Shown here: positions 18,176-31,246 of the stretch, piece by piece
How positions within the stretch are numbered: position 1 is the stretch's first letter
Layout of the letters: every line of letters begins with the position of its first letter
DNA from: Syntrophus sp. GWC2_56_31
GTDB taxonomy: Bacteria; Desulfobacterota; Syntrophia; Syntrophales; UBA5619
Direction: 5' to 3'
Length of the DNA: 33,619 nt
NCBI GenBank assembly: GCA_001829875.1
Contig: MICN01000059.1
Location: forward strand, 4,436-38,054
Program-made: the position numbers and the translations under genes
The notes under the pieces: model-generated
What the model was told of the DNA's origin: nothing
What the model saw: only the letters and a program-made list of their open reading frames with translations
Database searches by the model: none

Positions 18176-18189
18176 AAGGAGCTGATGGT

Positions 18190-19617
18190 ATGGAAATATC
18201 CAATAAAAAGTTGCCGGTGGAACAATTTTTCGCGGAACGACAGGAAGTGCTGAAGATGTGGCCCACCGGAAGCGAGGTCGATCTGGAAGAAGCCTTTCAG
18301 TATCACCGTGCAAGCGGACCTGGAAAAAACGTGGCCGCTGCATTACAAAAAGCCCATGCCGAAGGACGGGTGCTCATCGCGTTAAGGGCTGGGAAACCTA
18401 AAGTAGAGGGGCAAATAGAAGATCTGCTCTGCGTGCAGGAAGCCGGTGCGGATCTGCTGCCCATTACGGTAGACAGTTACTCCCGGAACCTTCGTTTCAA
18501 AGAAGTTGAAAACGCCCTGCAAGCGGGAAAAGATATCAATGGTTATCCAGTCGTAAATTACGGGGTCAAAGGCGGACACCGTATTATGGAAGCTGTGGGG
18601 CGGCCGGTAACCATAAAACACGGTTCCATTGACGCCCGGTTGGTGGCTGAAATAGGTTTTGCCAGCGGTATGTCGGATATAAACGGCAATATATACAGCT
18701 GGGGTTTGACATACAACAAAAATGTATCCCTGCTGAGTATCTTAAAAGTACAGCAGTACATTGACCGCCTGGCAGGGTATTATGCAGAAAACGGTATCAT
18801 TATAGCCAGAGAACAAGGGGGCGGACAAGGACCGGGGTGTTTCAGAGTACCCTGTATCTCTCTCTCCAATACTATCCTTGGGGCATTAATCTCAGCGGGG
18901 CAGGGGGTAAAAGCGACCCAAACTGCCTATGGCCAGGGAACAAACCTGATTCAGGATGTGGCTTCCCTGAAAATACTTCGCAAACTGAGTAATGAATACT
19001 TCCACAAATACGGTTTCGACAATGTTCAAATAACAACGATTTTTCACCAGTGGCAGGGGGCTTTCCCTGAAAAGCCCGAGGAAGCTATGGGTGTTATTTG
19101 CCTGGGTGCGACAACCGGCGTGCTGGGCGGATCCGATCAGATCGTTGTCAAATCAACCCAGGAAGGTGTAGGGGTTCCCTCGAAGGAGGCCAATGCCGCG
19201 GGAGTTACCGCTACAAGAAAAGTCATCGACATTTTAGGCAGGCAGCGGATGCCGGATAGTGAACAACTGCAGGAGGAAATGGAAATCGTAGAAGCTGAAA
19301 CCAGGGCTATTATTGACGCTGTGCTGGAAATAGGCGACGGAGACCCGGCCCTTGGTACATTAAAAGGGATTGAAACAGGGATTGTCGAGGTACCCTTTAC
19401 TCCCAGCATCTATAATTACGGGAAAGCCATTCCTGTCAGGGACGCCTATGGGGCTTACCGATTCCTGGATGCCGGTAATTTGCCGCTTCCCAAAAGGGCG
19501 TTAGCGTATAACCGGAGAAAGATTGACGAGCGATCCAGAATGGAAGGAGGACGGCCACCCTATGAAATGGTGCTGGATGACGTCTATGCCATGTTGAGAG
19601 TAAAGGAGGGGAAATAG
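18190..19617 (+). CDS. Glutamate mutase epsilon-subunit-like protein (GlmE/MutE), probably with altered substrate
   Basis: A 475-aa TIM-barrel subunit of an adenosylcobalamin carbon-skeleton mutase of the glutamate mutase class. Length and collinearity match Clostridium GlmE (483 aa) as I recall it. Residues matching cofactor contacts are kept: E208 (GlmE E214), and Lys and Glu in IVVKSTQE (K326, E330). Of the arginine claw, R66 and R99 (R66, R100) are kept, but the third (R149) is K143. The residue that contacts the substrate amino group (E171) is N165, and Y177 is W171; Y181 is kept as Y175. These comparisons rest on a remembered alignment. With no methylaspartate ammonia-lyase nearby, a non-amino dicarboxylate substrate is likely. 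ATG 18190 follows AAGGAG; the next gene starts one base after the stop. Confidence 0.88.
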   Translation: MEISNKKLPVEQFFAERQEVLKMWPTGSEVDLEEAFQYHRASGPGKNVAAALQKAHAEGRVLIALRAGKPKVEGQIEDLLCVQEAGADLLPITVDSYSRNLRFKEVENALQAGKDINGYPVVNYGVKGGHRIMEAVGRPVTIKHGSIDARLVAEIGFASGMSDINGNIYSWGLTYNKNVSLLSILKVQQYIDRLAGYYAENGIIIAREQGGGQGPGCFRVPCISLSNTILGALISAGQGVKATQTAYGQGTNLIQDVASLKILRKLSNEYFHKYGFDNVQITTIFHQWQGAFPEKPEEAMGVICLGATTGVLGGSDQIVVKSTQEGVGVPSKEANAAGVTATRKVIDILGRQRMPDSEQLQEEMEIVEAETRAIIDAVLEIGDGDPALGTLKGIETGIVEVPFTPSIYNYGKAIPVRDAYGAYRFLDAGNLPLPKRALAYNRRKIDERSRMEGGRPPYEMVLDDVYAMLRVKEGK

Positions 19618-19618
19618 A

Positions 19619-20062
19619 ATGGAAGATGAAGGAAATCCAGCTACCCTGGTAATGGGAGTGATAGGTTCCGATTCACACGCCATAGGCAACAGGATCCTCG
19701 CTTATGCCCTTAATGAAGCGGGTTATAACGTAATCAACCTGGGGTCTTTTGTCAGCCAGGAAGAATTTATTAACGCAGCAATCGAGAGCAGCGTCGATGT
19801 AATCCTGGTATCATCCCTCTGCGGCCACGCAGAAATTGACTGCCAAGGCTTTAAGAACAAACTGATCGAAGCCGGACTGCAGGATACCTTGCTGTATATT
19901 GGCGGAACTTTGGCCGTAGGTGAAACCAAATGGGAAGACATTGAACAACGTTTCAAAAAGATAGGGTTTACACGGATTGCACCACCCTACACGAGGCCTG
20001 GCGAGGTCATAAAGTGGCTACACGAAGACCTCGATAAAAGAAAAAATACGAAGGTTGCATAA
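19619..20062 (+). CDS. B12-binding sigma-subunit-like protein (GlmS/MutS of glutamate mutase type)
   Basis: A 147-aa cobalamin-binding Rossmann-like domain. The base-off/His-on motif DxHxxG is D18-S-H20-A-I-G23, with H20 as the cobalt ligand. SSLCGHAEIDCQG (about 65-77) matches the SSLYGxGEIDC segment of GlmS, and YIGG (93-96) is the C-terminal GG motif. The length is close to GlmS (137 aa). It starts one base after the GlmE-like gene, so the two are translationally coupled and form the mutase E2S2 complex by analogy. The order E-S-lyase-L differs from the S-L-E order of clostridial glutamate mutase operons. Confidence 0.93.
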   Translation: MEDEGNPATLVMGVIGSDSHAIGNRILAYALNEAGYNVINLGSFVSQEEFINAAIESSVDVILVSSLCGHAEIDCQGFKNKLIEAGLQDTLLYIGGTLAVGETKWEDIEQRFKKIGFTRIAPPYTRPGEVIKWLHEDLDKRKNTKVA

Positions 20063-20063
20063 G

Positions 20064-21002
20064 ATGGAAATAATGCAGAAGCAATCAAAAGAATTGAAGA
20101 AAACAACCAGGTTAAAAAATCTGCTGATACCGGGGAAGCCCTTGATGTGCCCAGGGGCTTACGACGCACTCAGTGCCATGGTTATTGAGAAAGTTGGTTT
20201 TTCCGCCGCACAGGTGACGGGGTTTGGCTTGGCCGGTAGTCTTCTCGGGTTGCCGGATGTGGGTATTTTCTCCCTGACGCAAATGGTGGACGCAACCCGG
20301 AACATCTGCCGGAGCGTATCCATACCTGTGATGACTGATGGCGACACCGGATTCGGGAATGCGGTTAATACGTATTATGCAGTTAAATTGTTTGAAGAAG
20401 CCGGGGCAGCCGGAATCAACCTGGAGGATCAGGTCTTCCCCAAACGCTGTGGCCATATGGAAGGCAAGATGGTTATTCCCATGGAGGAAATGACCGGAAA
20501 AATCGAAGCGGCAGTCGCGGCACGGAATGACAGCGATTTTATTATTAACGCCAGAACGGACGCAGGCACCCTTTACGGCATTGACGAGGCCATCAGACGC
20601 GGGAAAGCTTATGCTAAAGCAGGCGCAGATATGATCTTTCTGGAGGCACCGAAGATAGACAATCTGGATGACATCAAACGTGCCGGAGAAGAAATCGGCA
20701 TCCCCATCAGCATCGGTATTGTTTTGGGCGGCAAAGCACCTGTTTTAAGTTACGAGGAGTATTGCCGCTTAGGCTTGGCACGACTTAGTTTTCCCGTTGC
20801 CCCCTTGATGGCTGCCATGCACGGCCTGGAAGAAGCCCTGAAACTCCTGGCGGCGAAGAAGGGCTTTACCGGTGAGGATGCCCGGCATTATATGGCTTTC
20901 CAGGATTACCTGAAATTTGTCGGTCTGCCGCAAATCAGGGAAATGGAGAAAAAATACCTTCCGGGCGATGAAGTTATTGCCCGGTACGAAAGGAAGCAAT
21001 AG
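20064..21002 (+). CDS. Isocitrate lyase/PEP mutase superfamily C-C lyase (2,3-dimethylmalate / 2-methylisocitrate lyase-like)
   Basis: A 312-aa Mg-dependent lyase of the superfamily that cleaves 2-hydroxy-dicarboxylates into pyruvate or glyoxylate plus a second acid. The active-site loop PKRCGH has the catalytic cysteine C129, which marks lyases rather than the PEP mutase branch. The metal/substrate motif TDGDTGFGN is at about 91-99, NARTDA at about 162-167 and FLEAP at about 192-196. LGLPDVG fits methylisocitrate and dimethylmalate lyases. I start at ATG 20064, one base after the GlmS stop; a TTG nine bases earlier or ATG 20073 are alternatives. Placed between mutase genes, it probably cleaves a product derived from the mutase reaction. 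In nicotinate fermentation the equivalent enzyme makes propionate and pyruvate. Confidence 0.9.
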   Translation: MEIMQKQSKELKKTTRLKNLLIPGKPLMCPGAYDALSAMVIEKVGFSAAQVTGFGLAGSLLGLPDVGIFSLTQMVDATRNICRSVSIPVMTDGDTGFGNAVNTYYAVKLFEEAGAAGINLEDQVFPKRCGHMEGKMVIPMEEMTGKIEAAVAARNDSDFIINARTDAGTLYGIDEAIRRGKAYAKAGADMIFLEAPKIDNLDDIKRAGEEIGIPISIGIVLGGKAPVLSYEEYCRLGLARLSFPVAPLMAAMHGLEEALKLLAAKKGFTGEDARHYMAFQDYLKFVGLPQIREMEKKYLPGDEVIARYERKQ

Positions 21003-21011
21003 GAAGCCTCC

Positions 21012-22412
21012 ATGCGTATTATGCTCCTAATTGATTTTGGCAGCACCTTCACTAAGGGCGTAATGATTGATCTGGAGGGCGAAGAAGTTATTGCCAAAGC
21101 AAGCGTTTCCTCTACCGTTGACCGTGATGTTCGTTTGGGGTTGTCTGAGTTGCTGGTCGAACTGCGCGGTCAGACCTCTGACCGGCTGGTAAAAAACGCC
21201 CCCAAATTAGCCTGCAGTAGTGCGGCCGGTGGCCTACGGATGGTTGTCATCGGATTGGTCCCCGAACTCACCGTGGAGGCAGGCCGCAAGGCCGCCTGCA
21301 ATGCAGGGGCCAAAGTGATCGGCAGCATAGCGGGAGTCATGGATGACCCCGCGCTGCTCCAGTTGGCGGCGCTTAAACCGGATTTGATTCTTCTTTCCGG
21401 CGGCACCGACGGGGGGAATAAGGAGGTGATCATCAGCAACGCGGTGCTGCTGGCCGGCACACAGATAAACGTCCCGGTAATTATCGCCGGCAATAAAAAC
21501 GCTGTTCGGGAGTGCCGCGGAGCCTTGGAAAAAATGGGCAAGGCAGTTGTGGTTACAGAAAATGTGATGCCAAGCGTCAATTGCCTTCATATTGAACCGG
21601 CCCGGGAAACAATCCGGCGGGTCTTTATTGACAGGATTGCCAAAGCCAAAGGCATTAATACAGTGCAAAATCAGGTTGCACTCCTGATGCCGACGCCTAA
21701 CGCCGTATTGCAGGCAGTGGCTATCCTGGCCCAAGGCACGCCTGAAGAAGAAGGCCTTGGTGAATTGCTGGTTATAGACGTAGGCGGCGCTACCACCGAC
21801 GTTTATTCGGCCGGAGCGGGGATGCCAACCATGACCAATGTAATTCTCAAAGGACTACCCGAGCCATTTGTCAAACGAACCGTAGAAGGGGATTTGGGGG
21901 TACGGCATAACGCCCTCTCCATTGTGGAATTGGTCGGAATGACTCAGTTGCTCAAAGATGCCGGATTTTCTTCCGCAGAGGGAAAGAGAGTTATGGAATA
22001 CTGTCAAACCCTGCCTCCGGAGCAGTTGCCCCGGGAAGCATGGGAATTTGAGGTAGACAGCGGGCTGGCCAAGGCGGCAGTCAGATTGGGCGTGGAACGT
22101 CATGTTGGTTCACTGAAATTAGCGTATATACCAGGGGCCGGTGAGACGTTTATTCAAACCGGTAAAGACCTGCGCGGATTGAAAACCATTATCGGCACCG
22201 GTGGGCCGGTGATATTTGCCAAAGAGCCCTGCGCCATCTTGAACGAGGCGGTTTTCGACCCACGCACCCCCCATTTGTTGAAACCGGCACAGCCCAGGTT
22301 TATGCTGGATAAAACATACATACTGTATGCTCTGGGGCTACTGTCCGGTCAGTACCCTCACCGGGCTTTGCATCTGGCGAAGAAAAACCTTCAGCTCATG
22401 CACTGTCCTTAA
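21012..22412 (+). CDS. GlmL/MutL-like ASKHA ATPase, mutase partner
   Basis: A 466-aa protein of the glutamate mutase MutL family. The actin-like ATPase phosphate-1 motif is LLIDFGSTFTKGVMID (about residues 5-20). The family-specific LACSSAAGGLRMVVIGLVPELT is at about 67-88, LLSGGTDGGN at about 130, and the phosphate-2 motif LLVIDVGGATTDVYSA at about 251. GlmL is thought to repair or recharge the B12 mutase, by analogy with diol-dehydratase reactivases. Its presence means the cluster encodes a complete, maintained mutase. It is separated from GlmE/GlmS by the lyase gene, which supports a functional link between lyase and mutase. Identification of the family is firm, the molecular role is inferred. 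Confidence 0.92.
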   Translation: MRIMLLIDFGSTFTKGVMIDLEGEEVIAKASVSSTVDRDVRLGLSELLVELRGQTSDRLVKNAPKLACSSAAGGLRMVVIGLVPELTVEAGRKAACNAGAKVIGSIAGVMDDPALLQLAALKPDLILLSGGTDGGNKEVIISNAVLLAGTQINVPVIIAGNKNAVRECRGALEKMGKAVVVTENVMPSVNCLHIEPARETIRRVFIDRIAKAKGINTVQNQVALLMPTPNAVLQAVAILAQGTPEEEGLGELLVIDVGGATTDVYSAGAGMPTMTNVILKGLPEPFVKRTVEGDLGVRHNALSIVELVGMTQLLKDAGFSSAEGKRVMEYCQTLPPEQLPREAWEFEVDSGLAKAAVRLGVERHVGSLKLAYIPGAGETFIQTGKDLRGLKTIIGTGGPVIFAKEPCAILNEAVFDPRTPHLLKPAQPRFMLDKTYILYALGLLSGQYPHRALHLAKKNLQLMHCP

Positions 22413-22423
22413 GGGAAGCGGCC

Positions 22424-23323
22424 ATGAATAAAATTGGTTTTGTTGGCATTGGGAAAATGGGTATGCCCATCGCCTGCAATTTGCTGAAAGAGGGCTATGC
22501 CGTCACTGTTTGTGATCCTCACCGGGAAGCCCTGCAGTTCTTCACAAAAAAAGGCGGCCGATACGATGCATCATTGGGTAGATTGACGGCGCACTGCGAT
22601 ATTATTTTCCTCTGCCTGCCCGGCTCCCGGGAGACGGAAGAGGTAATGCACGGTCCAGAGGGGATTTTGGCGCAGCCGCCTGCGGGCAAATTGGTGATTG
22701 ATCTGGGGGATGGCGACCCTTACAGAACGGAACGAATTGCACAAGCGGCCGAAGCAAAGGGAGTGTCCTACCTGGACGCGTCGGTAGACGGGGGCATCGG
22801 AGAAGCGACCGCAGGAACCCTCACGATCATGGTGGGTGGGTCATATGCAGCCTATGAAAAAATTGAGGAGGTTCTCAATAAGATTGCCCGGAAAATCTTT
22901 TATATGGGTACCAGCGGAACGGGACACAAAGCCAGGCTTGTCCATACAATTATTTTCTGGGCTCATCTGGCTGTTTTATGTGAAGCTATGGTACTGGGAG
23001 TGAAGGCGGGGCTGGAGCCGGAGCAGATTTTGACCGTAATTAATGCCGGAGCAGCCGAAAGTCAAATTTCCAGTCGCTGCGGATCCCTTATTATCAAGAA
23101 CAACGGTAATGTTGAAGATACAGTAATGATCGACGACCAGTACATGGAGCATATCATGGCGATGGAAACACAGACCCGGACGACATTGCCTTTAGTGGGT
23201 TTGGTTTCCCAGTTGATGGTCGCCGCAAAGAACAGGGGTTTGTCCGCAGGGAATATTTCCGCGATACTGAAACTTTATGCAGAATTTGCCCGAATCAATA
23301 TGAGTGATGCCCGGAGAGATTGA
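22424..23323 (+). CDS. 3-hydroxyisobutyrate dehydrogenase family protein with altered catalytic residues (HIBADH-like 1)
   Basis: A 299-aa beta-hydroxyacid dehydrogenase fold: NAD motif IGFVGIGKMGMPIACNLL (residues 4-21), FLCLPGSRE, and YLDASVDGGIGEATAGTLTIMVGG. The family includes 2-(hydroxymethyl)glutarate, tartronate-semialdehyde and 3-hydroxyisobutyrate dehydrogenases. Three key positions depart from the family: the substrate Ser before GG is D122, the catalytic Lys is R171 (GHKARLVHT) and the Asn four residues on is T175. The paralogue at 25733 has S122, K171 and N175. So this protein may have a different reaction, a partner role, or no catalysis. It is well preserved otherwise and sits eleven bases after the GlmL-like gene, so it is likely under selection. 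Confidence 0.85.
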   Translation: MNKIGFVGIGKMGMPIACNLLKEGYAVTVCDPHREALQFFTKKGGRYDASLGRLTAHCDIIFLCLPGSRETEEVMHGPEGILAQPPAGKLVIDLGDGDPYRTERIAQAAEAKGVSYLDASVDGGIGEATAGTLTIMVGGSYAAYEKIEEVLNKIARKIFYMGTSGTGHKARLVHTIIFWAHLAVLCEAMVLGVKAGLEPEQILTVINAGAAESQISSRCGSLIIKNNGNVEDTVMIDDQYMEHIMAMETQTRTTLPLVGLVSQLMVAAKNRGLSAGNISAILKLYAEFARINMSDARRD

Positions 23324-23384: not shown

Positions 23385-25055
23385 ATGAACAGATGCGATG
23401 TGCTCGTGATCGGTTCCGGTGCTGCCGGGACCTTCGCCGCCCTGGCTGCAGCGGAGCAGGGAGCGCGGGTCTGCATTGCCTCCAAAGGTTCCCTCCTCTA
23501 TGGGAATACCCGCCTGGCCGGCGGCATCGTGGCCTGCCCGGGATTTGCCGATAATGATCTACCGCGTCATTTTGTGGAAGACGTTTTCCAGGCCGGGGAA
23601 CGGATCAGCAGGAGAAATCTGGTCGAACTGGTGGCGGAGGGAGGCCTGCAGTCTCTGCAGGCGCTGGAGGAATGGGGGTATCTTTTCAAAAGGAATGACC
23701 AGGGTGAGCCCCGCCTGACGCAGGCAGGCGGTCACCGCAGCGCCCGAACCATGATCTGTTGCTACCGCGGCAGTTCCCTTGCCAACCTCTTGCGCTGCAA
23801 AATTGCCTGCCATGACCGGATTAGGGTCCTGGAAAGCCATGTGCTTTATCGGCTGATCTTGACCGAGGGGGGGATGAGCGGCGCCCTGTTTCTCGATATG
23901 TACCGAGGTGAACCCGTTGTTATCGAGGCGCCTGCTGTGGTCTTGGCCACCGGAGGGGCGGGAATGGTATATGCCCCGCATACGGATAATACGCGGGAGG
24001 TCACGGGCGATGGAATGGCTCTGGCTCTACTGGTGGGCGCCCGGCTGGTAGACATGGAATTTATGCAGTGGATGCCCTTTGCTGTAACCTCTCCCCCTGA
24101 CCTGGTTGGCATCAACTGCGGCGAACCATCTTCCGCCGGTCCGCAAGGGGTGCTCTTGAACTGCCGGGGACGCGTGATTCTTCGTTCCTTCCATAGGATG
24201 ACCAGGGCTCAGGTGGCTCGAGTTATTTTCCGGGAAATAAAAAACGGCGGGGGCACTAGGAACGGAGGGGTAATCTTCGATCCACGGGCAAACCGAGGCG
24301 ACCCGGACGGTGAGAGAACCTATCAGGAAAGACGCTCCTTAGGCACCCTTGACGTGGTAAGGCAGGCCTACGGCCAAGAGGCCTATCAATGGTCTGTCCC
24401 CTATGAAGTGGCGCCCAGTGTTCATTTTACCCTAGGAGGTATTGTGGTGGATAATCAAGGGTCAACCGGGGTGGAAGGGCTTTTTGCCGCAGGCGAAGTA
24501 ACGGGGGGTTTTCATGGCGCCGACCGTTTGGGATCCGCAGCCCTGACCGAATGTTTCGTTGTTGGCAGCACCGCCGGATACCATGCCTGGGAGAAGTCCC
24601 GGCGAAAAATGAAGGTCCAGAAACGCATAGATTGCCGGGGCCTTGTCCGGGAACTGCATGCATTATTTGACCAGCCAGGCCGGGAGACACCGGAAAAACT
24701 TGCCCGGGAACTGGGGGATTTAATGTGGCGGAGGGCCGGGGGCGTCCGAGACCGGCAGGACCTGGAAAAGGCCAGAAGAGGTATTGCAGATCTTGTCCTT
24801 AAAAGTGAAGAAATTAAGACCCCGGGGCTGAAAAAATGGAATTTGCCGGTGCAGGCAGCAATAGAACTTCAGTCAATGCTGGTCGTGGCCGAGGCCATGG
24901 TGCTGGCCTCCCAGACCAGGGAAGAGACGAGGGGGACCCATTATCGACTTGATTATCCCGAACTCTCCAAGACCTGGGAAGGAAAGAATATCGTGATCGA
25001 GAGGGGGATCGACGGCGTTCTTACGGCATCGGTCAAGGACACGGACGAGTTATGA
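23385..25055 (+). CDS. Fumarate reductase / succinate dehydrogenase-like flavoprotein
   Basis: A 556-aa FAD protein of the FrdA/SdhA/NadB superfamily: CDVLVIGSGAAGTFAAL (residues 4-20), VVLATGGAG (186-193), APSVHFTLGGI (343-352, H347) and FHGADRLGSAALTE (376-389). The catalytic Arg is probably R274 (MTRAQVARVI). There is no histidine for covalent FAD (LLYGNTRLAGG replaces the SHT motif), so FAD is probably non-covalent. In place of the substrate His of the HPT motif there is M230 (QWMPF), so the substrate probably is not plain fumarate or succinate. The start is uncertain: ATG 23385 puts the FAD fold at the N terminus; GTG 23304 would overlap the previous gene and add 27 residues. The next gene, its iron-sulfur partner, overlaps by four bases. 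Confidence 0.87.
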   Translation: MNRCDVLVIGSGAAGTFAALAAAEQGARVCIASKGSLLYGNTRLAGGIVACPGFADNDLPRHFVEDVFQAGERISRRNLVELVAEGGLQSLQALEEWGYLFKRNDQGEPRLTQAGGHRSARTMICCYRGSSLANLLRCKIACHDRIRVLESHVLYRLILTEGGMSGALFLDMYRGEPVVIEAPAVVLATGGAGMVYAPHTDNTREVTGDGMALALLVGARLVDMEFMQWMPFAVTSPPDLVGINCGEPSSAGPQGVLLNCRGRVILRSFHRMTRAQVARVIFREIKNGGGTRNGGVIFDPRANRGDPDGERTYQERRSLGTLDVVRQAYGQEAYQWSVPYEVAPSVHFTLGGIVVDNQGSTGVEGLFAAGEVTGGFHGADRLGSAALTECFVVGSTAGYHAWEKSRRKMKVQKRIDCRGLVRELHALFDQPGRETPEKLARELGDLMWRRAGGVRDRQDLEKARRGIADLVLKSEEIKTPGLKKWNLPVQAAIELQSMLVVAEAMVLASQTREETRGTHYRLDYPELSKTWEGKNIVIERGIDGVLTASVKDTDEL

Positions 25056-25714
25056 TAATGGCGAAAATACGAAGAACTGATCCCACCACTGGGGACAGCC
25101 AGTGGCAAGATTATACTGTGCCCCTGGATGCCGGTAAAAAGCACAGTGTGCTGGGGATGCTTCATTATATATACACAAATATGGATGACACCTTAGGCTA
25201 CAGCTATGCCTGCCGTTTTCAGAGGTGCGGGTTGTGTGCCATGGTGATAAACGATAAAGAAAGCCTGGCTTGCATAACATTATGTGGCGAGGATATAAAG
25301 ATTGAGCCTCTTGGCAACCTTCCGCTCGTCAGGGATTTGGTCGTCGACCGCAGATTTTTGCTGGCGGAATTAAGACAACACCGCCTTCTTCCCCGGATGC
25401 ACACAGGAGAAGAAAAAGGTCCTTTTGCCAGGCGAACTGTTGTACAAAATTTCCAGCATCTTGTTAAATGTCGGGAATGCCTCTGCTGCCTTTCCTCTTG
25501 CCAGCGTTACGATTACCGTAATACCAGTTTCGGCGGCCCCTTCCTTTTCGTAAAAATAGCTCAGCTCGCCTATCAGGAAAGTAACCTGGGCTGCAGGACA
25601 GAACTCCTCCGAGACTTGGGTCTTGAACAGTGCCGCACCTGCGGAGAGTGCGCGTGCCCGGTGGGTGTGCCCATTTACAGAACAGCAATAAAACCATTTT
25701 TAGCTCTTCTATAG
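25052..25714 (+). CDS. SdhB/FrdB-like iron-sulfur subunit
   Basis: A 220-aa electron-transfer subunit. The [2Fe-2S] ferredoxin domain has C54-x4-C59-x2-C62-x11-C74. The C-terminal domain has C140-x2-C143-x2-C146-x3-C150 and a second motif C194-x2-C197-x2-C200-x-C202-P, two residues tighter before the CP than the usual arrangement. It overlaps the flavoprotein stop (ATGA), so the two are coupled and make a FrdAB-like pair. No membrane-anchor gene follows, so the complex is probably soluble and uses a soluble donor or acceptor, as in thiol:fumarate reductase-type enzymes. It likely adds or removes a double bond in a branched dicarboxylate intermediate. Confidence 0.88.
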   Translation: MIMAKIRRTDPTTGDSQWQDYTVPLDAGKKHSVLGMLHYIYTNMDDTLGYSYACRFQRCGLCAMVINDKESLACITLCGEDIKIEPLGNLPLVRDLVVDRRFLLAELRQHRLLPRMHTGEEKGPFARRTVVQNFQHLVKCRECLCCLSSCQRYDYRNTSFGGPFLFVKIAQLAYQESNLGCRTELLRDLGLEQCRTCGECACPVGVPIYRTAIKPFLALL

Positions 25715-25732
25715 GTTAAGAGGTGGAAGGTG

Positions 25733-26623
25733 ATGTTCACTATAGGACTCATCGGTACAGGAATCATGGGGTTGGCCATAGTCAGCCATCTAACTAAAAG
25801 CGGCTATCAGGTTTATGTCCATGACAACAAACCCGAACAAATGAAACGAGCCAGGGAGGCAGGAGCGCTGCCCGTCCAATCAGTCATCGAACTGGCGGCT
25901 AAATGCAATCCGGTATTTTTGTGCCTGCCTTCCTCCGCGGTAACTGAGGAGGTATGTGTAGGCGGCACCGGCCTGTTCAGTCATATGGCTAAGGGCAACA
26001 CCCTGATCGACCTGGGGACGGGCAATCCCACCGTGACAATATCCTTGGCCACTGCTGCGTCGGAGCAAGGGATAAACCTGCTCGATGCCCCCATCAGCGG
26101 CGGTTTCAAGAATGCTGAAGAAGGTAAACTCTCAATAATGGTCGGCGGTAATTATCAGGAATATCTCAAATATGAAGGACTCTTAAAGTCTATCGGCACA
26201 AGCGTAACCTATCTTGGTACGGCCGGGATGGGTCATACCGCGAAAATTGTCAATAATATTGTTTCGGGAGCAAATCTAATCGCCTTATGTGAAGGCCTGG
26301 TGTTGGGAACAAAAAGCGGGCTGAACATTGAAACGCTTCTCGATTCTATTAATGCAGGAGAGGCTCGCAGCTATATGTCACGGGTAAAAAAAATGGCCAT
26401 AATCACGAAGAACTTTACCCCCGGCGCCAAAGTGTCCATCCACGTCAAATGCGAGGATATTGCACTTGATCTTGGCCGGTCCTTGGGAGTTTTCTTGCCC
26501 ATTTGTTCCCTTACCAGAACCATCTATCACACAATGCTACACAAAGGAATGGGAGACCTGGATACGGCATCCGTTTACCGGTTTCTTGAGGAATATGCAA
26601 GTGCGAGGCGGTTAGGGGAATGA
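25733..26623 (+). CDS. 3-hydroxyisobutyrate dehydrogenase family protein, canonical active site (HIBADH-like 2)
   Basis: A 296-aa beta-hydroxyacid dehydrogenase with the full family signature: IGLIGTGIMGLAIVSHL (residues 4-20), LLDAPISGGFKNAEEGKLSIMVGG with S122, and GHTAKIVNNI with K171 and N175. It should oxidise a 3-hydroxyacid to an aldehyde or keto acid, or the reverse, with NAD(P). D31 at the end of the second strand favours NAD. In nicotinate fermentation this family supplies 2-(hydroxymethyl)glutarate dehydrogenase, which is relevant given the mutase and lyase nearby. ATG 25733 is chosen over the adjacent GTG 25730. It is the last gene of the main island run; a 265-base gap and a promoter follow. 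Confidence 0.88.
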   Translation: MFTIGLIGTGIMGLAIVSHLTKSGYQVYVHDNKPEQMKRAREAGALPVQSVIELAAKCNPVFLCLPSSAVTEEVCVGGTGLFSHMAKGNTLIDLGTGNPTVTISLATAASEQGINLLDAPISGGFKNAEEGKLSIMVGGNYQEYLKYEGLLKSIGTSVTYLGTAGMGHTAKIVNNIVSGANLIALCEGLVLGTKSGLNIETLLDSINAGEARSYMSRVKKMAIITKNFTPGAKVSIHVKCEDIALDLGRSLGVFLPICSLTRTIYHTMLHKGMGDLDTASVYRFLEEYASARRLGE

Positions 26624-28138: not shown

Positions 28139-28612
28139 ATGCAGAGGGTTCAACGGGCAGCCGCGGTTTGTTTCATCGCACTTTCTGGTTACGTCTGTAT
28201 AGCGGCCATTGGGATGGAATATTATACCAAATTGGGGCCGGGTCCCGGCTTTTTCCCTTTCTGGTTGGGATCGATCATGGGGGGACTTTCGATTGTATGG
28301 CTCATACAGCTTTTCAGGCAATCGGAAAAATCTAACGAAGGCAGATTTCTTCCTGAAAAAAAGGGTGTTATCCAAATCGTTTTAATCCTCGCGGCCCTCG
28401 CGGCGACTGCCGTTATGAGCGTCATCGGGTTTCAACTGACGATGTTTCTGTTTATGGTCTTTTTGCTGAGAGTTCTGGGGAGGAGCTCCGTCTGGACGAC
28501 TTTGAGCATTGCCCTTGTCTGCAGTGTCGGTGTATTCCACCTGTTCGGAAGATATCTGGATGTGCAGTTGCCGGCGTCGTCCCTGTCGATGCTTGCCGCG
28601 CTAGGCTTATAG
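28139..28612 (+). CDS. tctB: Tripartite tricarboxylate transporter, small membrane subunit TctB
   Basis: A 157-aa membrane protein with four predicted helices. The pattern GPGPGFFPFWLG (about residues 33-44) is the TctB signature loop. TctB is the small, poorly conserved subunit of the TTT family of secondary, binding-protein-dependent carboxylate importers. ATG 28139 follows a GGGGAGGGGG ribosome site. It lies immediately upstream of TctA with an eleven-base gap, the usual order. The 176-base gap before it holds no recognisable gene or strong signal. Confidence 0.85.
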   Translation: MQRVQRAAAVCFIALSGYVCIAAIGMEYYTKLGPGPGFFPFWLGSIMGGLSIVWLIQLFRQSEKSNEGRFLPEKKGVIQIVLILAALAATAVMSVIGFQLTMFLFMVFLLRVLGRSSVWTTLSIALVCSVGVFHLFGRYLDVQLPASSLSMLAALGL

Positions 28613-28623
28613 GAGGGAAAACG

Positions 28624-30135
28624 ATGGATGCCTTTTCGAACCTGATGATGGGATTCTCAGTTGCCCTGCTCCCCCAGCATTTGATGTTGGCTTTTGTGGG
28701 ATCTCTGCTGGGTACACTTATCGGCGTACTTCCGGGAATCGGCCCGGCGGCAGGCACGGCGATGCTCATTCCCCTGACCTTCAGCATGGGACCCACGGGG
28801 GCCATCATCCTATTGACGGCGCTTTTCTACGGAACGCAATACGGGGGAACCATCACCAGCGTCCTCCTCAATGTCCCTGGTGAAGCCGCTTCTGCAATCA
28901 CCTGTCTGGATGGGTACGCAATGGCCAAGCAGGGGCGGGCCGGGGTCGCTCTCAGCATGGCAGCCATCGGCTCGTTCATCGGGGGAACGTTTGCCGCTCT
29001 GTGCCTGGTTTTGGCGGCCGGGCCGCTCACCCGACTGGCGCTGCAGTTCGGACCGGTGGAATTTTTCACCCTGGTCCTGTTGGGAATCTCCTTGCTGATG
29101 GGCCTGGCGGGCAAATCCATGATCAAGGCCCTGATGATGGGGGTCTTCGGACTCCTGCTCGCAATGATCGGCATGGATCCCGTCCGGGGACTGCCGCGTT
29201 TCACCTTCGGTACCATGGAGCTAATGGATGGCATCAGTTTTGTCCCCGTAATCATGGGGTTGTTCGGGGTTGGTGAGATTCTGTTGAATGCCGAGAAACC
29301 CTTTGCGCAGATGGTTCTCGCAAAGATGAGCACGCTTATCCCCAACCGCCAGGAGATGCGTGATTCTCTTGGACCCGTCGTGCGCGGCAGTCTTATCGGG
29401 ACCCTACTGGGCCTCGTGCCGGGAATGACGAACTCTGCATCATCGTTCCTGTCGTACATCGCCGAAAAGAAATCTTCCAATTACCCGGAGCGATTTGGAA
29501 CCGGCATGCTCGCAGGTGTTGTGGGACCGGAAACCGCCAACAATGCCCACGCCAACGGGGCGCTCATTCCGCTTTTCACGTTGGGTATTCCCGCCTCGCC
29601 CACGGTAGCGATAATCATGGGAGCTTTTATGATGCACGGGCTGATCCCGGGCCCTCTGCTCTTCAAGGATCATCCCGGCATAGCTTGGGGGGTGATTGCC
29701 AGCTTCTACATCGGGAACGTGATGCTTGTCATCCTCAATCTGCCTCTGATCGGCATATGGGTCAAGCTCTTGAAAATCCCTTACGGCATACTTTCCGCGA
29801 TCATTTTGTCTTTCACCGTTTTGGGTGCATACAGCATCAACAACAGCGTCTTTGACGTGCTGGTCATGACCCTTTTCGGTGTGATAGGATACCTTCTGCG
29901 AAAGATGGATTTTCCGTTGGCGCCCGCGGTATTGACCCTCATCTTGGGGCCAATGATGGAAAGTTCGCTCCGGACATCCCTGGAAATGTCTCAGGGGTCT
30001 TTCGGCATCTTTCTGGAGAGCCCCGTTGCCGTCGTCTTCCTGGTGCTGACAGCGGTAATCCTCATCGCTCCGTCGTTTTCATTCTTCAGGAAGAAGAAAC
30101 AGTCCTTGGCGGCGGGGGAGGAGGATTTGCTCTGA
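28624..30135 (+). CDS. tctA: Tripartite tricarboxylate transporter, large membrane subunit TctA
   Basis: A 503-aa integral membrane protein with about 11-12 helices. The conserved GTLIGVLPGIGPAAGTAMLIPLT (about residues 28-50) and YGGTITSVLLNVPGEAASA (about 76-94) are the highly conserved TctA motifs. A second internal repeat contains SLIGTLLGLVPGMTNSASSFLSY and GVVGPETANNAHANGALIPLFTLGIP. TctA forms the ion-driven translocation pore; it accepts substrate from the periplasmic TctC. It is a strong marker that the cluster imports an organic di- or tricarboxylic acid. It sits between TctB and TctC. Confidence 0.95.
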   Translation: MDAFSNLMMGFSVALLPQHLMLAFVGSLLGTLIGVLPGIGPAAGTAMLIPLTFSMGPTGAIILLTALFYGTQYGGTITSVLLNVPGEAASAITCLDGYAMAKQGRAGVALSMAAIGSFIGGTFAALCLVLAAGPLTRLALQFGPVEFFTLVLLGISLLMGLAGKSMIKALMMGVFGLLLAMIGMDPVRGLPRFTFGTMELMDGISFVPVIMGLFGVGEILLNAEKPFAQMVLAKMSTLIPNRQEMRDSLGPVVRGSLIGTLLGLVPGMTNSASSFLSYIAEKKSSNYPERFGTGMLAGVVGPETANNAHANGALIPLFTLGIPASPTVAIIMGAFMMHGLIPGPLLFKDHPGIAWGVIASFYIGNVMLVILNLPLIGIWVKLLKIPYGILSAIILSFTVLGAYSINNSVFDVLVMTLFGVIGYLLRKMDFPLAPAVLTLILGPMMESSLRTSLEMSQGSFGIFLESPVAVVFLVLTAVILIAPSFSFFRKKKQSLAAGEEDLL

Positions 30136-30265
30136 TCGGAGGGAATAGTGATGCACGACGGCAGATGGGGTCACAGAGTCCCGATTTCTGTCTGCAAAAT
30201 GTAGTCCGGCAAGTGTCATGGGGCGTGTTTAAAGTTTACTCGAATTTTGAAAAGGAGGAAAAGTC

Positions 30266-31246
30266 ATGGCTCAGTACAGATTTCACTCAAGAATAGTAGG
30301 TTTTTTCTGCGTTTTCGCGGTCTTTGTTCTCTTTTTACCAGCCTGGGCGGCGGAGTTTCCCCAGAAGGATAAAACTATTCAGCTTATGGTACACTGGTCG
30401 GCCGGTGGGAGCTCTGATACTGGCGCCCGTCTCATAGCAAGTGGCCTGGAGAAGGAGCTTGGGACTTCTGTCGTGGTGGTCAACAGGCCGGGGGCGGGCG
30501 GTCAGATCGGCTATACCGCACTTTCTCAAGCCAAACCCGACGGCTATACTATTGGGAGCACCAATTTCCCCTCCGCCATCAGCTCATACTTGGACCCCAA
30601 CCGTAAGGCCACCTATAATCGTCAGAGCTTCGAGTTGCTGGCATTGCATGTGCTGGATCCGGGTATCATTGCCGTCAAGGCCGACAGTCCGTACAAGACC
30701 CTGCAAGACGTGATCGCTGCCGCCAAGGCGGCGCCGAAGAAACTTAGGGTCAATACCACAGGTATCCAGACCGATGAGCACTTTGCCACTCTCTGGCTGG
30801 AGCAACTAACGGGAGCGCAGCTTGCGAGGGTCCATTTGAAGGGGTCCGCGCCTTCGGTTACGGCCGTCTTGGGAGGGAAGATCGAGGTATACTGCGGCAA
30901 TGTGGGGGATCCACAGGTCAGGGGCGGTGAATTTCGGGTCCTTGGAATCATGGACTCTGAACGAAATCCATTTCTCCCAGGGGTCAAAACCTTTGAAGAA
31001 CAGGGGTATAAAATATACTTCGGTTCGTCGCGGGGTTTCGCAGCCCCCGCAGGAACCCCCAAAGAGGTCGTAAACATCCTGAGCAAGGCAATAGGGAATG
31101 TCACCAAGACCGAAGATCACAAGCAAAAGATGCTGAATATGGGACTGACCCTCCGGTACTTAGACCCAGCGGGATACAAGAAATACTGGGATGAGTTCGA
31201 AGCGAAGATGAGGGACTTGATGCCGCTCATTCAGAAGGAATCCTAA
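30266..31246 (+). CDS. tctC: Periplasmic solute-binding protein TctC (BugT family)
   Basis: A 326-aa secreted receptor. The N-terminal signal peptide has a basic start (QYRFHSR), a hydrophobic core (IVGFFCVFAVFVLFLP) and a likely cleavage at AWAA near residue 29. The mature part has the Bug fold marks GGSSDTGARL, NRPGAGGQIGYTAL, and AAPAGTPKEVVNILSKA near the C terminus. It should bind the carboxylate and deliver it to TctAB. No tctDE two-component system is nearby. It lies 130 bases after tctA, with AAAAGGAGGAAAAG before its ATG. Confidence 0.93.
   Translation: MAQYRFHSRIVGFFCVFAVFVLFLPAWAAEFPQKDKTIQLMVHWSAGGSSDTGARLIASGLEKELGTSVVVVNRPGAGGQIGYTALSQAKPDGYTIGSTNFPSAISSYLDPNRKATYNRQSFELLALHVLDPGIIAVKADSPYKTLQDVIAAAKAAPKKLRVNTTGIQTDEHFATLWLEQLTGAQLARVHLKGSAPSVTAVLGGKIEVYCGNVGDPQVRGGEFRVLGIMDSERNPFLPGVKTFEEQGYKIYFGSSRGFAAPAGTPKEVVNILSKAIGNVTKTEDHKQKMLNMGLTLRYLDPAGYKKYWDEFEAKMRDLMPLIQKES

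Follow-up and report, generated by a model that had tools for sequence, protein, structure and literature searches.

A soluble FrdAB-like pair with a changed substrate site, encoded beside a B12-dependent mutase in Syntrophus sp. GWC2_56_31

The window analysed here, a stretch of 33,619 nucleotides from Syntrophus sp. GWC2_56_31, encodes a flavoprotein and an iron-sulfur protein that resemble the FrdA and FrdB subunits of fumarate reductase and share a gene cluster with a B12-dependent mutase (Table 1). On balance, we favour the view that the two proteins form a soluble two-subunit oxidoreductase of the complex II superfamily, which belongs to a distinct clade without the usual anchor for a second carboxylate and acts on an acid other than fumarate. 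By analogy with urocanate reductase, it is probably an enoate reductase or a saturated-acid dehydrogenase, and not a fumarate reductase. The traits of its altered site are not private to the window gene, but mark a whole clade, which is widespread in bacteria and archaea and apparently uncharacterised; no literature on FrdAB of this kind was found among open-licence papers.

Table 1. Genes of the window discussed in the text
Feature	Position	Strand	Remarks
MutE-like B12 mutase large subunit	18184..19617	+	R149K, E171N, Y177W vs glutamate mutase
MutS/GlmS B12-binding subunit	19619..20062	+	DxHxxG motif present
PEP mutase / isocitrate lyase family lyase	20064..21002	+	KRCGH motif; nearest solved relative petal death protein
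GlmL/MutL accessory protein	21012..22412	+	family matches
HIBADH-family protein, first	22424..23323	+	closest in PDB 2-hydroxymethylglutarate dehydrogenase (3cky)
FrdA-like flavoprotein	23385..25055	+	556 aa; ATG at 23385, where residue numbering starts; stop ends 25055
FrdB-like iron-sulfur protein	25052..25714	+	220 aa; ATGA overlap with FrdA-like gene
HIBADH-family dehydrogenase, second	25730..26623	+	closest tartronate semialdehyde reductase; KIVNN intact
TctB, TctA, TctC, tripartite tricarboxylate-type transporter	28139..31246	+	named from translations

The flavoprotein has both Pfam domains expected of the complex II flavoprotein family, FAD_binding_2 and Succ_DH_flav_C. Structure prediction with AlphaFold, which a preliminary description of this DNA had suggested, yields an FrdA fold with a pLDDT of 94.1, and the best solved match of this model is E. 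coli FrdA (Z 54.4, rmsd 2.5 over 540 residues; Foldseek against 1kf6, E 3.2e-43). All listed NCBIfam equivalog cut-offs, however, lie far above the scores of the protein: its best match is TfrA (305 bits vs a cut-off of 718), and it likewise stays below the cut-offs for sdhA_frdA_Gneg (246.6 vs 567.3) and NadB (268.9 vs 452.75 bits). Only one other full-length FrdA-type flavoprotein was recognised in the same genome, a NadB-like protein encoded on C35.

The substrate site was assigned from alignments with solved structures and with relatives (90 loci for the residue comparison), together with the ligand-free predicted model. At the position of the His that links FAD covalently in FrdA and SdhA, the protein has an Asn (in the motif GNTR), and Asn or Asp is found there throughout the clade; given this residue, the FAD is expected to be bound non-covalently. 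The His of the HPT motif is replaced by M230, followed by P231 and by F232 in place of the Thr. Since M230 sits gap-free between the invariant Q228 and P231 and the model is confident at this point, none of the alignments made here brings the His back. In the Thr-Glu pair that follows, the Thr is a Gly, and the Glu is retained as E247 (Asp in the Bacilli members), so that some dicarboxylate binding may survive. The catalytic Arg (R274), the second His (H347) and the carboxylate Arg (R381) are all retained. The preliminary description, which had listed the missing FAD-linking His, M230 at the HPT position and the preserved catalytic Arg and other His residues, thus read this site correctly.

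A precedent for such a half-conserved site is urocanate reductase, in which the carboxylate contacts R411, R560 and H520 are common to fumarate reductases, the HPT His is Tyr373, and the exchange Y373H results in low fumarate activity (PMC7921117). The HPT His matters for fumarate binding, and its loss is an experimentally known route to a changed substrate in this superfamily (PMC7921117). On this analogy, the retained half of the window enzyme's site should grip one carboxylate as usual, while the other half appears to be respecified for something else, and it is this combination that makes an enoate reductase or dehydrogenase probable.

The FrdB-like partner contains a Fer2_3 domain (Pfam) and passes the dhsB model TIGR00384 (115.5 vs 88 bits; NCBIfam), while its best NCBIfam match, TfrB, reaches 124 bits against a cut-off of 385. 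Its Cys residues fall into three sets (C54/59/62/74, C140/143/146/150 and C194/197/200/202), namely a [2Fe-2S] motif, a CxxCxxCxxxC motif and a C-terminal CxxCxxCxCP motif. The last of these stands in place of the third-cluster pattern CxxxxxCxxxCP, and its spacing agrees with the tightened motif noted previously. Most FrdB proteins of the clade share a C-terminal CxxCxxCxC; that of locus L053 is long, with the wider spacing CxxCxxCxxxCP and a C-terminal extension like that of TfrB, and those of L061 and L067 have small insertions. The Bacilli FrdB proteins nearest to that of the window (L059:11642-12283, L063:11629-12270 and L066:11642-12298) are without most third-cluster Cys, and the latter two additionally lack the last Cys of the middle motif.

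No membrane-anchor gene adjoins the pair in the window, no small anchor genes were recognised beside it in relatives, and a genome-wide search of its own genome (78% complete) gave no Sdh_cyt match, in line with the earlier claim that an anchor is missing. An ordinary complex II was rejected on the residues, the scores below cut-off and the failure to find an anchor in this incomplete genome.

On this basis, R381 and H347 would hold one carboxylate, R274 would act as proton donor or acceptor, and hydride would pass to or from the neighbouring carbon of a C=C or CH-CH unit via the non-covalent FAD. The face that receives the second carboxylate in FrdA (H232, T234, T244) would be rebuilt from M230-P231-F232 and a GEPxxAGPxG loop, which may suit a group that is larger, branched or less polar. 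Electrons would travel through the FrdB-like protein, by way of a [2Fe-2S] cluster, a [4Fe-4S] cluster and a third site where four Cys replace the [3Fe-4S] pattern, and their final partner would be a soluble carrier and not quinone. Most likely, the enzyme would convert a saturated acid into an unsaturated one, or the reverse, as a step in the operon's B12-mutase pathway.

Among known systems, E. coli FrdAB (1kf6) shares with the window pair the fold, both flavoprotein domains, the catalytic Arg, the equivalents of H355 and R390, and a Fer2_3 partner. However, identity is just 28-30%, the window protein lacks the FAD-linking His and differs at H232 (M230), T234 (F232) and T244 (Gly), its FrdB ends in CxxCxxCxCP, and no FrdC or FrdD was found. 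L-aspartate oxidase NadB has the same fold (Z 48) and non-covalent FAD, but keeps HPT and has no FrdB partner. The urocanate reductase UrdA (6t85-6t88) also has the HPT His replaced and holds one carboxylate with the conserved Arg/His/Arg; there, however, the replacement is Tyr, whereas it is hydrophobic in the window clade, and UrdA has a covalent FMN domain but lacks an iron-sulfur subunit, whereas the window enzyme is paired with an FrdB-like protein.

A scan of public genome contigs with the single flavoprotein sequence found no relatives, but an alignment-based scan of public genomes recovered the clade and added further members. Across the phylum (395 genomes), six proteins with 36-42% identity were found. 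The sampled genomes of the window's own family and order yielded no clade member (best 34%). In a maximum-likelihood tree of 70 rows, a branch with support 100/100 sets apart 22 of them, all of which read '[MILF]PF' instead of 'HPT'. Within this clade, the window protein groups with three Bacilli (96/84) and an Archaeoglobi sequence (100/99), although these exact neighbours are less sure than clade membership, as the branch of the window row is long (1.46). Six Bacillota members added later have the same motif and an adjacent FrdB. The clade comprises members from Desulfobacterota, Bacillota, Archaeoglobi, Methylomirabilota, Rokubacteria, Poribacteria and Pseudomonadota, and in every one of them the HPT His is a hydrophobic residue ('[MILFV]PF'). 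The His is also missing from other lineages outside the clade, where the motif reads 'YP' (L055-L057, L075, L107, L121), and its loss is therefore recurrent.

In the window, the pair is preceded on the same strand by two 3-hydroxyacyl-CoA dehydrogenase-like genes, a TPP enzyme, an SDR, MutE, MutS, the lyase, GlmL and the first HIBADH, and is followed by the second HIBADH, an LDH2-type dehydrogenase, TctBAC and an HpcH-type aldolase. Its position between two HIBADH-type genes is as previously described, with one refinement: the first reads GHKARLVHT where the second reads GHTAKIVNN, and has thus exchanged the usual catalytic Lys for Arg and the following Asn for His. TctA and TctC have no NCBIfam match, but homologues are present at other MutE loci. 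Small-acid transport genes likewise lie near the pair in several relatives.

The MutE protein passes the methylaspartate-mutase model TIGR01503 (456 vs 390.1 bits). In glutamate mutase, R149 forms the arginine claw together with R66 and R100, and the amine and the acrylate are contacted by E171 and Y177, respectively (PMC9545868). The window protein keeps R66 and R100 and has K149, N171 and W177 at the other three positions; judged by these residues, it is probably not a glutamate mutase despite its curated score, and the loss of the amine-binding residues suggests a non-amino substrate. With E171 lost and no methylaspartase match in the genome, the canonical route from glutamate to mesaconate was rejected. 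The known dimethylmaleate route was rejected as well, there being no match for a PrpF-type isomerase or an aconitase-type hydratase; these absences, like those of methylaspartase and Sdh_cyt, weigh little, since the genome is 78% complete.

An operon combining FrdAB and the mutase was not found to be conserved across genomes. MutE homologues of the phylum sit with Tct genes, MutS and GlmL and without clade FrdAB, and in the sampled genomes of the window's own family, no clade FrdA and no clear MutE were found outside its own genome, so that the combination looks recently assembled. Four Desulfobacterota loci (L155, L156, L158 and L159) combine TctA, mostly with TctC, with MutS, GlmL and a MutE with Ser149 and Leu171, and represent a further group of respecified mutases linked to a Tct transporter; at L161, Tct genes occur with the same type of MutE, without MutS or GlmL matches. 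At L163:3975-11050, a variant MutE/MutS/GlmL cluster occurs together with an MmgE/PrpD protein and a FAD_binding_2 protein of a different kind.

The neighbourhoods of clade FrdAB pairs are diverse. In Bacilli, they adjoin liv-type ABC genes, an enoyl-CoA hydratase and CoA ligases; in Desulfobacterota, UbiD or a type 2 isopentenyl-diphosphate isomerase / FMN-dehydrogenase-like gene; in Dethiobacter-like Bacillota, UbiD, a PaaK-like ligase and TRAP genes; and elsewhere, CoA-transferase or succinyl-CoA-ligase-like genes. These widely differing contexts do not point to one reaction common to the clade. From the differing neighbourhoods, and from the finding that 21 other clade-bearing genomes gave no MutE match, we conclude that the type of reaction is probably shared and the substrate is not. 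In NaphS2 (L064:7639-11707), the pair follows a type 2 isopentenyl-diphosphate isomerase gene, and L050 has a related gene in addition to UbiD. At L178:7902-13332, it follows genes whose N-termini resemble those of the ornithine OrtAB thiolase and of 2,4-diaminopentanoate dehydrogenase, and in a Granulosicoccaceae MAG (L096:3-3691), a clade member has a HIBADH-type neighbour encoded on the opposite strand.

Several alternatives were weighed for what the window pair acts on. TfrAB of methanogens is a soluble two-subunit enzyme and provides the best NCBIfam match of both subunits, and the long FrdB at L053 has a TfrB-like extension, which the window FrdB lacks; the pair could thus be a conventional soluble fumarate reductase able to do without the His. 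We consider this very unlikely, as both scores are far below the curated cut-offs, the TfrA-like Methanobrevibacter sequences keep HPT and fall outside the clade, and the lost His is important for fumarate binding (PMC7921117). An enoate reductase or dehydrogenase for mono-carboxylic or aromatic-chain substrates of the cinnamate or acrylate type, merely located in this operon, would fit the single conserved carboxylate grip and the presence of UbiD (L029, L050, L062, L067), acyl-CoA ligases and an enoyl-CoA hydratase near relatives. This, too, appears unlikely to us, since the remaining operon resembles dicarboxylate chemistry and the contexts disagree on a substrate.

The preliminary description had proposed a dedicated enoate reductase or dehydrogenase for a branched dicarboxylate, a specific case of the reading we favour. 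The pair's non-classical character is supported by the scores, the clade-wide loss of the His and the failure to find an anchor, but this support does not extend to a substrate. In its specific form, a respecified B12 mutase would make or use a methyl-branched, non-amino dicarboxylate similar to 2-methyleneglutarate or 3-methylitaconate, and FrdAB would reduce or oxidise one such acid. The operon points toward non-amino branched acids: FrdAB is co-directional with MutE, MutS and GlmL, MutE lacks its amine binder, the lyase and the first HIBADH have the closest structures given in Table 1, Tct-type transporter genes are present, and methylaspartase is unmatched. A branched dicarboxylate is therefore plausible in the window. 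On the other hand, the known steps from methylitaconate to dimethylmalate lack PrpF-type and aconitase-type matches in the incomplete genome, the 21 other clade genomes gave no MutE match, contexts differ, and the usual catalytic Lys is missing from the first HIBADH, so that we regard this redox step as a tentative possibility. The fullest version, in which a widespread soluble FrdAB-type clade with a respecified half-site and a four-Cys third site acts on acids other than succinate and fumarate, and here takes part in a new B12-mutase pathway that handles a non-amino branched dicarboxylate, strikes us as rather speculative.

As fumarate reductase and succinate dehydrogenase models give the genes of this clade their best scores, these genes are likely to be named accordingly. 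In a clade that spans at least seven phyla and has uniformly lost the second-carboxylate anchor, such names are probably wrong, and anaerobic electron sinks or acid-oxidising enzymes may lie behind them. Furthermore, because FrdAB sits here with a MutE that is also stripped of its amine-binding residues, a direct test becomes possible for the substrate of what may be a new carbon-skeleton pathway.
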